DNA of 64,000 nucleotides from Mucilaginibacter frigoritolerans (GTDB lineage Bacteria > Bacteroidota > Bacteroidia > Sphingobacteriales > Sphingobacteriaceae). Shown here one piece after another: positions 7,598-58,114 of the stretch. The notes below the pieces were generated by a model that saw only the letters and a program-made list of their open reading frames with translations, did no database searches and was not told where the DNA came from. Position numbers and translations under genes: made by a program. The stretch is taken from assembly GCF_007830615.1 (NCBI RefSeq), contig NZ_VLLI01000002.1, positions 186,001 through 250,000 on the forward strand, written 5' to 3'. Position 1 is the first letter of the stretch. Each line of letters begins with the position of its first letter.

Positions 7598-8344
7598 TTA
7601 TTTTTGGCGGGAACGGAAAAACAATGTCCAATCGCCTTCGGATACGACTTCGATATCATTGTCTACCACTTTAATCGCCGTTTGGTCGTCGATTGCATAT
7701 ACCGACGCGGGTATGCGAGCAGCCCATTTTTTTGCGTTGGCAATAGATGCATCCGCATGTTGTTTGTTGTCCAGATGGGGGATTATTGCAAAGTCTACTA
7801 AGCCAGCTCCATTAGCCGTTATCAACGTCGTGCTTATTTCTCCTTCTGGCGTTGAAAGTATCAATTGTTCTGAGCTAAGCGGTATGCCGCTTCCGCCGCG
7901 TGGCACCGAATAGGTTTCGCCGAAAATTTTACTTGCCGCCATGCTTCCGGCACTTACGCCTACATAAACGGTTTTTTGCAGTAATGTTGGCAATAGCGGT
8001 GCCAGCCCACTTTGCTGTAACCAATAGCTGAGGTACAGAGGGTCGCCCCCCCAAAACAGCAAAGCATCAGCCTCCTCGACCGCAGGCAGCCAAATTGCCT
8101 TTTCTATACTGGGCAGCGCGGTCAATTCTAGTAACCCCAGGGTTTTCCATGGTAAGGTGCAGAGTTGTGATTGGGAATTTCCACTAATTGGGTTCCAGGC
8201 GTAGCGTGCGCCATATTTAAAAGGATAAATCGCCGTCGGAATGAACAAGGCATTAGATTCTTCGATGGGTTTACCCAACAAATCAACCAACGCATGGTGA
8301 ATGCTCGGATTAGTAATACCACTGGAGGTGAGAAGAAGTTTCAT
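7598..8344 (-). CDS. Peptidase S51 family (peptidase E-like)
   Basis: 248 residues. The nucleophile elbow GVSAGSMA with Ser131, preceded by FWGGDPLYLSYWL (97-109), is the signature of the S51 family (peptidase E, cyanophycinase and class I glutamine-amidotransferase-like folds), where the serine sits in G-x-S-A-G. The segment DFAIIPHLDNKQHAD probably supplies the histidine region. The enzyme would be a cytoplasmic dipeptidase or related hydrolase. The gene lies inside a 1172-bp unit bounded by direct repeats and splits two homologous crp-like segments, so it is probably an acquired insertion. The start ATG at 8344 fits the family N-terminus MKLLLTSSG. Confidence 0.85.
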   Translation of the reverse strand: MKLLLTSSGITNPSIHHALVDLLGKPIEESNALFIPTAIYPFKYGARYAWNPISGNSQSQLCTLPWKTLGLLELTALPSIEKAIWLPAVEEADALLFWGGDPLYLSYWLQQSGLAPLLPTLLQKTVYVGVSAGSMAASKIFGETYSVPRGGSGIPLSSEQLILSTPEGEISTTLITANGAGLVDFAIIPHLDNKQHADASIANAKKWAARIPASVYAIDDQTAIKVVDNDIEVVSEGDWTLFFRSRQK

Positions 8345-31525: not shown

Positions 31526-31560
31526 TGAGCTGAGTTATGCCAATGATATAACTCAGCTCA
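31526..31560. terminator. Inverted repeat between ppnP and the tRNA array
   Basis: TGAGCTGAGTTAT (31526-31538) and ATAACTCAGCTCA (31548-31560) pair perfectly with a 9-nt loop. The T-run is weak in both directions. It separates convergent ppnP and the tRNA array and may end both. Confidence 0.55.
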
Positions 31561-31662
31561 ATGAAATAAAGAAATATCTTTATTTAAACACAGCTCCCCC
31601 TACCCGCAAACAGCAGCAATTTAAACACAAAAACCAATATTCAACCCTATAAAATCATCCGT

Positions 31663-31729
31663 TTTCCTTGGGTTCGAACCACGATCTTCTGAATCAAAAT
31701 CAGACGTGCTACCGTTGCACCATAGGAAA
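31663..31729 (-). tRNA. tRNA-Gln(UUG)-like, truncated T-arm
   Basis: On the minus strand the D-arm GTGC-AACGGTA-GCAC and anticodon stem-loop TCTGA-TTTTGAT-TCAGA are as in a normal tRNA-Gln with anticodon TTG. The acceptor can pair as TTTTCC with GGAAAA. The T-loop TTCGAAC is present but its stem has only three base pairs (TGG/CCA) if the acceptor is formed, so the gene is about 67 nt instead of 72-75. It may be decayed. No CCA is encoded. Confidence 0.6.
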
Positions 31730-31735
31730 ATAATG

Positions 31736-31807
31736 AGGTCAGTACAAGATTCGAACTTGTGAACAATCCATTTGCAGAGGATACCCTTACCACTCGGGCA
31801 ACTGACC
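31736..31807 (-). tRNA. tRNA-Cys(GCA)
   Basis: Acceptor GGTCAGT/ACTGACC is a perfect 7-bp stem, D-arm CCC/GGG, anticodon loop CTGCAAA (anticodon GCA) and T-arm ACAAG-TTCGAAT-CTTGT. One mismatch (T-T) closes the anticodon stem. 72 nt, CCA not encoded. Third in the array. Confidence 0.75.
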
Positions 31808-31814
31808 GCTTTTG

Positions 31815-31887
31815 TGGAAACAAAAGGACTTGAACCTTTAACCGGCACCGTATAAGGGTGTTGCTCTAACCATTGAGCTATATTTCC
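31815..31887 (-). tRNA. tRNA-Ile(UAU)
   Basis: Acceptor GGAAATA/TGTTTCC (one G-T pair), D-arm GCTC/GAGC, anticodon loop CTTATAC with anticodon TAT, and T-arm AAAGG-TTCAAGT-CCTTT. The top pair of the anticodon stem is A-C. 73 nt. Anticodon UAU is rare in bacteria, which normally read AUA with a lysidine-modified CAU anticodon. Second in the array. Confidence 0.7.
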
Positions 31888-31897
31888 ATTATAAAAG

Positions 31898-31971
31898 TAG
31901 GGTAACCCGGGCTCGAACCGGGAGCCTCTCCGTTCCAAACGGAGTAATCTGACCAATTGATATATTACCCT
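31898..31971 (-). tRNA. tRNA-Pro(UGG)-like
   Basis: Acceptor AGGGTAA/TTACCCT perfect, three-pair D-stem, anticodon stem-loop CTCCG-TTTGGAA-CGGAG (anticodon TGG) and T-arm CCCGG-TTCGAGC-CCGGG. Unlike ordinary tRNA-Pro it lacks the CGGG-type acceptor and has A instead of G at position 37, so charging and identity are uncertain. First gene of the array, 22 nt after the terminator. Confidence 0.7.
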
Positions 31972-31993
31972 GAAAAATCGACACAAAACAAAA

Positions 31994-32021
31994 AATCCCC
32001 TTAGATTTTTCTAAGAGGATT
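31994..32021 (-). terminator. Intrinsic terminator (attenuator) before the tRNA array
   Basis: On the minus strand AATCCTCTTAGA, loop AAAA(A), TCTAAGGGGATT, followed by TTTTGTTTTG: a canonical stem and U-run. It lies between a short ORF and the first tRNA. The left arm segment ATCCTCT can pair instead with AGAGGAT at 32064-32058, giving an antiterminator. Confidence 0.75.
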
Positions 32022-32055
32022 CAAGTATCGTGTTTATGTTAAGTCAATACATAGC

Positions 32056-32112
32056 CTATCCTCTCTGATAAATCAGTTGGGGTATAGCGCAAAGTATTGT
32101 TGTTGTTTTCAT
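32056..32112 (-). CDS. 18-codon leader peptide of the tRNA array (attenuator)
   Basis: ATG at 32112 to TAG at 32058-32056 encodes MKTTTILCAIPQLIYQRG. Codons 6 and 10 are ATA, 8 is TGC, 11 is CCC and 12 is CAA, that is one or more codons for each of the four downstream tRNAs (Ile-UAU, Cys-GCA, Pro-UGG, Gln-UUG); codons 3-5 are three ACA Thr codons. A promoter-like box ends 4 nt before the ATG. The last codons (AGA GGA T) contain the strand that can break the terminator stem. Translation is not proven; the call rests on architecture. Confidence 0.5.
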   Translation of the reverse strand: MKTTTILCAIPQLIYQRG

Positions 32113-32116
32113 GGCA

Positions 32117-32148
32117 CAATGATAGGACTTATTTTTTAAATAAAGAAA
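32117..32148 (-). promoter_or_regulatory. Promoter-like site of the leader and tRNA array
   Basis: On the minus strand TATCATTG (32124-32117) is one mismatch from TAnnTTTG, with TTTC 20 nt upstream (32148-32145). The distance to the leader ATG (4 nt) is the same as at 14232, 44619 and 45248. Confidence 0.5.
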
Positions 32149-53899: not shown

Positions 53900-54514
53900 T
53901 TACAGGTTATCACGTATTATTTTAACTGGATTGCCGCGCTGCAAAGCATGATGCTCCAGCCAGCGGCTTTGCTGCTCATCCATTAATTGTTCCATCTGCC
54001 AGGCCATTACTTTGGCTTGTAGTCGCTCAACACAAAGCTTTTTATTTTCCAACTGCGACCGGCTGTCCATTGCAAATACCTGCAAACCGGAAGGCTGGTG
54101 TATGCCCCGCACGGCAGTTTCCACTTTATTTACGTTTTGCCCTCCGGGACCTGAAGCACGGGTAGTTTCAAATTTTACATCTTTCAAATCCCATTTCGGT
54201 AATTCTTTGATATCGAAAATGCTTACACCCACAAACCAGTTTTTGCGCTTATGATTTCTACGATACAGACTTTGCGCTATCCATTGAATAGTTCCACTCC
54301 ATTCCACAATAAATGATTCCAAATCGCCACCTGCTGCGGTTAATGTACCTGAAAGTAGCGTGCCTTCTATTTCTCCTTTTTTATTATCAAGTATTTCAGT
54401 TTCGATATGCTTTTGTTTTGCCTGTTCCAGTATCAGTTGCAGTACAAGAGCAACAGCCCGGCAACATTCTGCCGGGCCTTTGCCTGCTGTAATTTGTATA
54501 ATTACTTTTTTCAT
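53900..54514 (-). CDS. prfH: Peptide chain release factor homologue PrfH
   Basis: 204 residues. The RF-1 catalytic domain has TTRASGPGGQNVNKVETAVRGIH with GGQ at 124-126; the stop-codon recognition domain of RF1/RF2 is missing and is replaced by a short N-terminal alpha/beta part (MKKVIIQITAGKGPAECCRAV). This is the PrfH type, which with RtcB2 rescues ribosomes whose decoding-centre 16S rRNA has been cut, by releasing the peptide so that the RNA ligase can repair it. The gene is 4 bp after rtcB2, as in known operons. Confidence 0.92.
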   Translation of the reverse strand: MKKVIIQITAGKGPAECCRAVALVLQLILEQAKQKHIETEILDNKKGEIEGTLLSGTLTAAGGDLESFIVEWSGTIQWIAQSLYRRNHKRKNWFVGVSIFDIKELPKWDLKDVKFETTRASGPGGQNVNKVETAVRGIHQPSGLQVFAMDSRSQLENKKLCVERLQAKVMAWQMEQLMDEQQSRWLEHHALQRGNPVKIIRDNL

Positions 54515-54518
54515 GGTG

Positions 54519-55919
54519 TTAATCTTTATTCATGCGTACAATACGCGGTATAAATTTTCCCTGAATATCAACCAGGCTGGTTTGCGCTTCAATCACCTTT
54601 TCAATGTCTTTATAAGCCATCGGGTTTTCTTCTACGCTGCCGCCAATAAGCGTTACTCCGGCGTTTGATAATAACTTTTTCATTCCTGAAACAGTCATGC
54701 TGTCTTTTGCCTTTTGTCGGCTCATGGCCCTGCCCGCCCCATGCGATGCTGAATACAAAGCCTGATCAATTCCTTTGCCCTTTACCAAATAGGCCGATGT
54801 GGTCATACTGCCTGGTATAATCCCCAACTCGCCTTCATGTGCCGGGGTAGCACCTTTGCGGTGAATGATAACCTGTTTACCATCGGCCAGGGTATCCTTC
54901 CAGGCAAAATTGTGATGGTTCTCTATCAGGCAAAGCGGTTTTATACCCAATGCTTTTAGCAAATTGGCATGGATCCGTTCATGACATGCACGGGCATAAT
55001 CTCCTGCCAAGGTCATGGTTAGCCAGTACTCTTGTCCGGCTTCGCTGTCCATATCCAGCCAGGCTAATTGTTGTGCCTCGCGCGGAAGTCTACAGGTATT
55101 CATAGCCAATTGGGTGTAATGCTTGGCTATCGCCGATCCTAATCCCCTGCTGCCCGAGTGTGATAATAAGGCTGCATACTTTTTACCGGGTAAGCCCAAT
55201 GTGTTGTTATCAGCAAGCGCTATCTCCCCAAATTCAACAAAGTGATTACCATTGCCAGAAGTACCCAACTGCCTGGCAGCCTTTCCGCGCAATGGTTTCA
55301 GAAAAGGAATTTGGGTAAACACATCACTGTCCAGTATCTCGTGTTCCTGTCGTGTGTCCAGTCCGCCTTCCATACCAAAATGGGTGTTGCTTTTTAAGGC
55401 CTGTTTAATTTGATAATTGTAACGGCTGATAAACGTATCGCTTTCATCAATAATGGTTAGTGCCATACGGCAGCCGATGTCCATGCCCACAGCATAGGGT
55501 ATTACCGCATTGTTTGCTGCAAGCACCCCTCCAATAGGCAGACCAAAGCCCATGTGTGCATCGGGCATTAAAGCACCCTGTATACTTATGGGCAGGCGCA
55601 TGGCCAGTTCCATTTGTTTTTTGGCGGATGCCTCAATATCCTTACCGCCATAAATTTTATATGGTGCAGACTGCTCCATTATTTCAAAGGCTTTAAAAGC
55701 CGGTTCGTTTACTTTACCTATAACGCGCTCCGCTATTCTACCCTCAACTTCATGATGCAGATATTGCTCTGGTTTATCTTTTATTGCCGTTAGCAGGGTT
55801 ATAATCTGCTCGTTACTGTGGTGTTTATAGTGTTTTGCAGCTATTCCCAATGTAAAGCTGATGAGCTGATTATTGGTATAGCCGATCTTTGTCAGATCTT
55901 TTGTTTTTAAATTGCCCAT
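54519..55919 (-). CDS. rtcB2: RNA ligase RtcB2 (PrfH-linked RtcB)
   Basis: 466 residues. Manganese/GTP ligase motifs: MPDAHMGFGLPIGG (Asp120, His122), GMDIGCRM (Asp147, Cys150), SGNGNHFVEFG, HSGSRGLG and the guanylylated histidine in YSASHGAGRAMSR. RtcB joins 2',3'-cyclic phosphate ends to 5'-OH ends. Pairing with prfH marks the RtcB2 branch devoted to repair of 16S rRNA cut by ribotoxins. It heads the two-gene operon. Confidence 0.92.
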   Translation of the reverse strand: MGNLKTKDLTKIGYTNNQLISFTLGIAAKHYKHHSNEQIITLLTAIKDKPEQYLHHEVEGRIAERVIGKVNEPAFKAFEIMEQSAPYKIYGGKDIEASAKKQMELAMRLPISIQGALMPDAHMGFGLPIGGVLAANNAVIPYAVGMDIGCRMALTIIDESDTFISRYNYQIKQALKSNTHFGMEGGLDTRQEHEILDSDVFTQIPFLKPLRGKAARQLGTSGNGNHFVEFGEIALADNNTLGLPGKKYAALLSHSGSRGLGSAIAKHYTQLAMNTCRLPREAQQLAWLDMDSEAGQEYWLTMTLAGDYARACHERIHANLLKALGIKPLCLIENHHNFAWKDTLADGKQVIIHRKGATPAHEGELGIIPGSMTTSAYLVKGKGIDQALYSASHGAGRAMSRQKAKDSMTVSGMKKLLSNAGVTLIGGSVEENPMAYKDIEKVIEAQTSLVDIQGKFIPRIVRMNKD

Positions 55920-56455
55920 GTGGGTTTATATTTTTTATACCCGTTGCCGTTAAGCATACCAGGTGTGTTTTTAAATTTGTTAAGGCGCTGATGATAATTC
56001 CAATCATCAACAAAAAATTATTTGTCCGAATGGCCGTTTCAAAACGGCAAAGGCATAGCGATTCCATAAGCTAGTGATGATTAAAATTTAACAATTGATT
56101 TTAAATCGATAATTTTTCATCCGCAGCTTGGCGGATATACCCTTTGCATTGCCCAAAACGGCATAAAAATCGACAGACCGGAATAGCTAATAGTATTGAA
56201 TACCAAATGGCACCCAATTAATTATTTCCAAGAAAATTGAATAGCAATTTTGCCTGCCTTTTTAGGCAATGAGCGAAGGGGGCGATATGTGGATGAGCGT
56301 TGTCATGGTTCCGTGATATTTAAAAGGTTAACAAATCAGGAATTGAGGCAAAGATAACAGAAATATCTGATTTTAGCTGGCACCTAAACTACTCCTTTAT
56401 AATTCGTTAGTCTAACCAGCATGAAATTGTTATTTTTGCCGTTCCAAATAATATC
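55920..56455. other. Intergenic region between rtcB2 and glnS
   Basis: No convincing gene. It holds short inverted repeats: TGATGAT-N7-ATCATCA near 55989-56009, GCCGTTT-CA-AAACGGC at 56033-56048 and TTGCCT-N8-AGGCAA near 56250-56269. The glnS promoter is at its right end. The rest looks like ordinary AT-rich spacer. Confidence 0.5.
56431..56438 (+). promoter_or_regulatory. -7 box of glnS
   Basis: TATTTTTG matches TAnnTTTG, 17 nt before the ATG; the -33 region is weak. Confidence 0.55.
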
Positions 56456-58114
56456 ATGAGCGAAGAAAGAGCATTAAATTTTATAGAAGAAATAGTTGAA
56501 GAAGATTTAGTCGCCGGTAAAAATGGCAAGCGGGTACTTACCCGTTTTCCGCCTGAGCCCAATGGCTATCTGCATATCGGCCACGCCAAATCCATCTGCT
56601 TAAATTTTGGATTGGCTTTACGCTATGGCGGCCAAACCAATCTCCGCTTTGATGATACCAACCCCACTAAGGAAGATGTAGAATATGTTGACAGCATTAA
56701 GGAAGATGTAAAATGGCTGGGCTTTAACTGGGCCAACGAACTTTATGCATCCGACTATTTTGATAAGCTGTATGATTTTGCTGTAGCCCTGATCAAAAAA
56801 GGCCTGGCTTATGTTGATGATAGCTCTGCCGAAGAGATTGCCTCACAAAAAGGAACACCAACTGAACCGGGTACGCCTAATAAGTACCGCAGCCGTTCGG
56901 TTGAAGAAAATTTACAGCTGTTTGCTGATATGAAAGCCGGTAAATACCCGGATGGCGCCAAGGTGCTGCGCGCCAAACTGGATTTGGCTGCACCTAATAT
57001 GCACCTGCGCGATCCGTTGATGTATCGTATTAAACATACACATCACCACCGTACCGGCGATAAATGGTGTATTTACCCAATGTATGATTTCGCTCACGGG
57101 CAGTCTGACGCTATTGAGGAAATTACCCATTCTATTTGTACGCTGGAGTTTATTCCGCACCGCGATTTATACAATTGGTTTATTGAACAACTGGACATAT
57201 TCCCATCCAAGCAGTATGAATTTGCCCGCTTAAATCTTAACTATACCGTAATGAGCAAGCGCAAGCTGCTGCAATTGGTAGAGGATAAGCATGTTGACGG
57301 CTGGGATGATCCGCGTATGCCAACCATTAGCGGTTTGCGCCGCAGGGGTTATACACCTGCTTCCATACGCGAGTTTTGCGAGCGCATTGGCGTTGCCAAG
57401 CGTGAGAATATGATTGATGTGAGTCTGCTGGAGTTCTGTATCCGCGAGGATCTGAACAAAACGGCATGGCGCCGCATGGCGGTGTTGGATCCTATCAAAA
57501 TGGTCATCACCAATTATCCGGAAGGGCAAACTGAAACTATGTTCAGCGAAAACAACCCCGAAGTTGAAGGTGGGGAAGGCGGCAGGGATATTCCGTTTAG
57601 CCGTGAACTTTGGATTGAGCGCGAAGATTTTATGGAAGAACCTCCAAAGAAATTTTTCCGCCTGGGTGTTGGCTTAATGGCAAGGCTAAAAAGCGCCTAT
57701 ATTGTTAAGTGCGATAGTTTTGTGAAAGATGCTGATGGCAATGTAACCGAAATACACTGTACCTATATTCCGGAATCAAAATCGGGCAATGATACCAGCG
57801 GTATCAATGTAAAAGGCACCATCCATTGGGTGAGTGTTCCTCATGCTCATACTGCCGAAGTAAGGATGTATGATCGTTTATTCCAGGTGGAAGATCCGTC
57901 AAATGAAGATGGCGACTTTAAAGAATATTTAAACCCAACCAGTTTACACATTTTGCCAAACGCTTACATTGAGGCTGATCTGGCAAGTGCCGTACCGGGC
58001 AAGGGTTATCAGTTTATCCGCAAGGGCTATTTTACTCTTGATAAAAATTCTAACGCAGGCAAGCTGGTGTTTAACCGCACGGTGACGCTGAAAGACGGAT
58101 GGGTGAAAAAATAA
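56456..58114 (+). CDS. glnS: Glutamine--tRNA ligase
   Basis: 552 residues, the normal size of bacterial GlnRS. Class I signatures: [15 protein letters not shown] with HIGH at 40-43, and VMSKRKL at 265-271 as KMSKS. The region [30 protein letters not shown] is typical of GlnRS as opposed to GluRS, and the C-terminal anticodon-binding barrels follow. It charges tRNA-Gln directly in the cytosol. A single gene with its own promoter and downstream inverted repeat. Confidence 0.95.

Follow-up and report, generated by a model that had tools for sequence, protein, structure and literature searches.

The 64,000-nt window analysed here covers positions 186,001-250,000 of contig NZ_VLLI01000002.1 of Mucilaginibacter frigoritolerans, our reference locus, and all coordinates are counted within it. 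On the minus strand, an intrinsic terminator is placed between a short leader ORF and four tRNA genes (Table 1). An earlier note on this DNA had listed a promoter-like box, the ORF, the terminator, the four tRNAs and a set of codons read by them, and every one of these was recovered at the same minus-strand positions. The box, which we take to be a -7 box of the Bacteroidetes TAnnTTTG type, stands only 4 nt from the ATG, so that the leader mRNA probably has little or no 5' untranslated sequence and starts at the ATG or within a few bases of it. The leader contains ATA twice as well as TGC, CCC and CAA; all four codon types occur together in only 7 of 11505 stretches of 11 codons in the genes of the window, which gives the chance level.

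Table 1. Leader and tRNA features of the reference locus (window coordinates)
Feature	Position	Strand	Basis
-7-like promoter box TATCATTG	32117..32124	-	4 nt 5' of ATG; read in sequence
Leader ORF, 18 codons and stop, peptide MKTTTILCAIPQLIYQRG	32056..32112	-	Sequence; start codon and frame kept in relatives
Sensor codons 6-12, ATA CTT TGC GCT ATA CCC CAA	32077..32097	-	Codons track array tRNAs
1:2 protector (anti-antiterminator) hairpin, inner stem CTGA-TTTA-TCAG at 32076-32065	32045..32099	-	Minimum free energy fold
Region 2, AGAGGAT, overlapping last codons and stop	32058..32064	-	Pairs with region 3
Region 3, ATCCTCT, 5' arm of terminator and partner of region 2	32014..32020	-	Sequence, pairing
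Intrinsic terminator (3:4), 13-pair stem GAATCCTCTTAGA/TCTAAGGGGATTT and T-run	31985..32022	-	Terminator search, conservation
tRNA-Pro (UGG)	31897..31971	-	ARAGORN; Rfam tRNA, 59.0 bits
tRNA-Ile (UAU)	31814..31887	-	ARAGORN; Rfam tRNA, 69.2 bits
tRNA-Cys (GCA)	31735..31807	-	ARAGORN; Rfam tRNA, 57.9 bits
tRNA-Gln (UUG), short T arm	31662..31729	-	Rfam RF00005, 41.7 bits; missed by ARAGORN

A tRNA-Gln occupies the equivalent place in the arrays of relatives. Because further Pro, Cys and Gln tRNA copies are encoded elsewhere in the genome (Pro UGG twice and GGG, Cys GCA four times, Gln UUG and CUG), all with bodies that differ from those of the array, the array looks like a reserve tRNA set. A second UAU tRNA besides the tRNA-Ile of the array was not found in the source genome.

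The leader RNA folds at -37.2 kcal/mol (z of -7.0 against shuffles, 0 of 200 shuffles being as good), and its best fold combines the terminator with a long hairpin in which the sensor codons are paired with the AGAGGAT region. This 1:2 protector hairpin is a third helix, missing from the earlier note. The complementarity which that note had pointed out is exact, AGAGGAT (32064-32058) being the reverse complement of ATCCTCT (32020-32014), and the 2:3 duplex formed by these two segments is lengthened by a distal helix between GTATTG (32050-32045) and CGATAC (32030-32025).

On the 3' side of the array, at 31557-31605 of the minus strand, GGGTAGGGG is followed after about 15 nt by the palindrome TAAAGATATTTCTTTA; homologous motifs follow about 35 arrays. 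Many leaders have a similar AT palindrome, AGAAATTTCTT, across the -33 region on their 5' side. This echo of the 3' palindrome near the promoter led to the idea that the array is a mobile unit inserting at palindromes. The idea was rejected: the 3' motif is present once in the source genome, and a search of two near relatives for an empty site gave no clean junction.

Distribution and competing helices of the leader

A DNA search of 60 genomes recovered the leader and array in 13 genomes of the same genus, and a scan for the terminator pattern added Pedobacter, Hufsiella and Chitinophaga barathri. A covariance model built from 14 leaders gave matches in 66 of the 150 Mucilaginibacter genomes searched and, at the level of the family, in 64 of 400. 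Applied to the whole class, the model gave only weak matches and no strong leader outside Sphingobacteriaceae; the Chitinophaga copy was detected by the pattern scan and not by this search. Two of the weak class-wide matches that were checked lie upstream of hisG: in L228 (about 1500-2509) and L226 (608-1700) of the class Bacteroidia, His-rich leader peptides with terminators stand 5' of this gene. These are classical his attenuators in Bacteroidota; the model thus recognises a classical attenuator, and this serves as a calibration. The exact terminator pattern occurs in none of the IMG/VR viral contigs, and a comparison of the locus with phages gave similarity at the level of the tRNAs only. 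Mucilaginibacter also has a near-identical terminator, AATCCTCTTAGTTAACGCTAAGGGGATTTTTTG, at places that lack this leader (L083, about 7840-7961; L071, L045 and L081), in one instance directly 3' of a tRNA-Phe gene.

Two leader-terminator units in tandem were found in Pedobacter (L032, L088, L168 and L169) and in Chitinophaga barathri (L060), with tRNAs between the units in some of the loci, and possibly constitute two checkpoints. Nearly all leaders in first position carry TATnnTTGnnnnATG as promoter box. The second leader of a tandem lacks the box in Pedobacter and has it in Chitinophaga; the Pedobacter second leader retains the ORF, the protector hairpin and the terminator.

Conservation was assessed over 78 distinct leaders and the tRNAs behind them. 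In the terminator, 99.2% of cells are paired and three pairs show compensatory changes. In the 1:2 hairpin 84.5% of cells are paired, compared with at most 43% when the partners are slid by 1-3 columns; 12 of its pairs show changes on both sides, and at the second pair of the inner stem 42 sequences have U-A and 33 have C-G. The 2:3 antiterminator is likewise conserved (89% of cells paired), and folding of the segment that spans regions 2 and 3 returned the antiterminator pairing in 77 of the 78 leaders. Its proximal core measures only 4-5 bp in about a quarter of them, and a distal helix of clade-specific sequence often extends the duplex. No covariation was seen for 2:3 over the 78 leaders, since region 3 is nearly invariant and is held by the terminator as well. 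The earlier expectation for relatives was therefore borne out in that the ORF and the pairing are kept and the codons follow the array; the compensatory changes predicted for AGAGGAT-ATCCTCT are absent from that pairing and were seen instead in the protector hairpin and the terminator.

Median energies are -15.3 kcal/mol for 1:2, -8.5 kcal/mol for 2:3 and -15.0 kcal/mol for 3:4. The terminator exceeds the antiterminator in stability, so the switch has to work kinetically, with the antiterminator forming first. The last sensor codon ends about 12 nt 5' of AGAGG, which is roughly the reach of the leading edge of a stalled ribosome. In nearly all leaders the stop codon overlaps region 2, so that a terminating ribosome would mask it. 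The spacer between the T-run and the first tRNA is 0-17 nt in most loci. A transcription start in this gap, one of two outcomes that the earlier note had named as speaking against attenuation, is thereby made unlikely.

Leader codons and the tRNAs behind them

All 78 leaders retain a start codon, which is GTG in one of them (L155), and length changes in the sensor part are by 3 nt only, with the reading frame kept. The 73 promoter-proximal leaders were used to count Cys and Phe codons. All 38 leaders with tRNA-Cys contain a Cys codon, versus 3 of 35 without tRNA-Cys (the first leader of L060, L158 and L080). Two other candidate exceptions to this rule, L033 and L085, were dropped when longer stretches (L118 and L116) revealed tRNA-Cys in both. 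The Cys codon is substituted by CGC in L003, by AGC in L103 and by AGC in Pedobacter, and a whole group carries the peptide IQIQLPQ. Some arrays include a fifth tRNA, Phe(GAA), and a Phe codon occurs in 12 of 12 leaders with tRNA-Phe versus 17 of 61 without. Phylogenetically independent pairs were drawn from a tree built without the sensor region. All nine pairs differing in tRNA-Cys agree with the codon content, as do all eight informative pairs for tRNA-Phe, a further two being uninformative.

At least two ATA codons are found in 67 of 73 leaders with tRNA-Ile versus 0 of 5 without, counts that are partly structural because the first ATA (codon 6) is kept even where tRNA-Ile is missing. Its persistence is probably due to its pairing in the protector hairpin. 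ATA makes up 155 of 160 Ile codons in the sensors versus 248 of 880 in the window genes. Leaders average 2.4 Gln codons when tRNA-Gln is present versus 1.1 when it is absent. The smallest arrays are especially informative, each having a leader to match: one with Gln(CUG) only has the sensor MKARSIQQHFQQ (SIQQHFQQ), one with Pro(CGG) only has MNQTSIPCLSPC with CCG codons, and Pro(CGG) together with Gln(CUG) goes with MKTPSIQRQDPQ or MNYTPIQVQQQQ, both rich in CAG and CCG. In L036, where Ile(GAU) replaces Ile(UAU), the second Ile codon is ATT. Comparison of the sequences indicates that the leader serves as a protein-coding readout of the tRNAs in its array. Free variation of the leader codons, the other outcome held against attenuation, is not what the related genomes display, and the attenuator reading proposed earlier fits them well: ORF, terminator and 2:3 pairing are kept while the codons change with the array tRNAs.

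Some array tRNAs are themselves unusual. In L119, L127, L136, L010 and L003, tRNA-Cys is lost and the third tRNA of the array is Cys-like with an odd anticodon loop: the 8-nt loops TGTCTAAT and TGTTTAAT, TTTTAAG (UUA) or TTTTGAG (UUG). These Cys-like tRNAs may reflect decay or new decoding. In the array tRNA-Phe (L103, L034, L069 and others) the T loop, ATCGTTA, is non-canonical and the D loop is unusual, and this tRNA is quite unlike the housekeeping tRNA-Phe.

RNA-repair genes near the arrays

With about 10 kb read on each side, a gene for RtcB, TROVE/Ro60 or RlaP lies near 32 of 60 arrays. Among Mucilaginibacter genomes, 22 of the 38 with both TROVE and the array have the two within 10 kb of each other (0.13 expected at random), and RtcB is within 20 kb in 27 of the 58 that have both (0.6 expected); the random expectation is rough, and genomes that are related do not count as independent cases. 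Of the 65 genomes with the array 58 encode RtcB, versus 32 of the 85 that lack the array. The proximity does not go back to one inherited junction, as arrangement and strand vary, and the array and the repair genes are not one operon, being mostly on opposite strands. In the source window, the nearest RtcB is encoded with prfH at 55919-53900, 22.5 kb from the array, and a second RtcB lies just beyond the window edge. The prfH and rtcB-family genes adjoin glnS, for glutaminyl-tRNA synthetase (53900-58114).

The Salmonella RNA repair operon is known to respond to broken tRNAs (PMC7790460), and tRNA cleavage is for this reason the likeliest trigger here too. Caution is called for, as the RtcB2-PrfH pair is reported to protect against colicin E3 and to give no protection from tRNA-targeting toxins (PMC9223846). 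For the response to tRNA damage suggested in the earlier note, the linkage to RNA-repair genes is the one line of support, and it points to such a role from gene positions.

A proposed attenuator of tRNA genes and its alternatives

Comparative evidence supports the ORF, the three competing helices, the matching of codons to tRNAs and the linkage to RNA repair, and it is very likely that a ribosome-mediated attenuator of the trp/his kind governs this tRNA operon. For its operation we infer the following. Transcription would start at or just 5' of the ATG, and a ribosome would translate the short leader behind RNA polymerase. With tRNAs for the ATA, Gln, Cys and Pro codons plentiful, the ribosome would reach the stop codon and cover region 2; with region 2 masked, the terminator would form and the tRNAs would not be made. 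If one cognate tRNA became scarce, the ribosome would stall in region 1 and block the 1:2 hairpin, region 2 would pair with region 3, and the terminator would be pre-empted, so that read-through into the tRNA genes could occur. Since the products read the very codons that trigger their synthesis, the loop would be autogenous and self-limiting. The trigger would be loss of tRNA, probably through cleavage.

It is very improbable that the terminator instead ends a separate small RNA or untranslated transcript, the tRNAs having a promoter of their own and the ORF being due to chance. Either element, a consensus terminator or a short ORF, readily arises by chance, but the short spacers leave no room for a promoter in most loci, and frame and codon content co-vary with the array. 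In addition, the start of L155 is GTG instead of ATG, and the Pedobacter second leaders keep the ORF even without the box. A different question is what the attenuator responds to. Its natural signal might be amino-acid starvation, that is uncharged tRNA, as in trp and his, because a stalled ribosome cannot distinguish an uncharged from a missing tRNA and the same model picks up his leaders in the class. On the other hand, tRNA products do not relieve an amino-acid shortage, four or five unrelated amino acids would be sensed together, the codon choice is tRNA-specific (ATA, not ATT or ATC) and the neighbours are RNA-repair genes, which leaves starvation an unlikely signal.

The attenuator might also serve ordinary tRNA homeostasis or codon demand, for instance when growth is fast or during phage infection, and have no particular connection with damage. 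Autogenous matching of codons and tRNAs requires no damage, only about half of the arrays are near repair genes, and in the source genome the nearest RtcB is as far off as 22.5 kb. Against this, the housekeeping Pro, Cys and Gln copies elsewhere make the array resemble a reserve, and RtcB and TROVE are near it far above chance, so that we regard homeostasis as a possible but rather doubtful explanation. That the output of the array matters mainly when tRNAs are lost to damage seems to us evenly balanced between true and false. We give much the same weight to a dedicated response to tRNA cleavage, in which stalling would sense the lost tRNAs and the same tRNAs would be supplied from a reserve beside RtcB, Ro60 or RlaP genes, the sensed and replaced set shifting from one species to another as if in an arms race with anticodon nucleases.

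Leader-peptide attenuation is textbook knowledge for amino-acid operons. Like the trp, his, thr and ilv attenuators, the present leader combines a short ORF with regulatory codons and mutually exclusive protector, antiterminator and terminator helices. Unlike them, the regulated genes are tRNAs and not makers of the sensed amino acid, one leader senses several unrelated amino acids, the codons match the tRNA species of its own operon, the mRNA probably lacks a 5' untranslated region, and in some relatives two attenuators follow one another. Control of transcription by the state of tRNA is shared with T-box riboswitches, but these regulate synthetase and amino-acid genes, whereas the sensor proposed here is a translating ribosome; an Rfam scan of the locus at E up to 5 gave no T-box match. 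Phage, plasmid and conjugative-element tRNA arrays are likewise compact sets of extra tRNAs differing from the host copies, yet the present arrays are chromosomal, small (1-5 tRNAs) and behind an attenuator. No attenuator of tRNA genes was found in the open-access literature, and we know of no described case in which tRNA genes are the output of an attenuator whose leader reads its own tRNAs codon by codon. The mechanism is of a known kind; the target, the multi-codon readout and the autogenous logic are new to our knowledge. The RtcR-controlled rsr-yrlBA-rtcBA operon (PMC7790460) shares a response to tRNA damage, as proposed here, and RtcB and Ro60/Rsr, which stand beside many arrays. RtcR detects the ends of broken tRNAs and activates repair enzymes, whereas the present attenuator would detect a loss of decoding and supply replacement tRNAs.

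The natural variants, with 1-5 tRNAs and matching leaders, already amount to an experiment that can tell which tRNAs are sensed. Should tRNA cleavage be the trigger, the arrays would form an arm beside RNA repair that replaces what was cut, and the reason why bacteria keep spare tRNA arrays would become directly testable.
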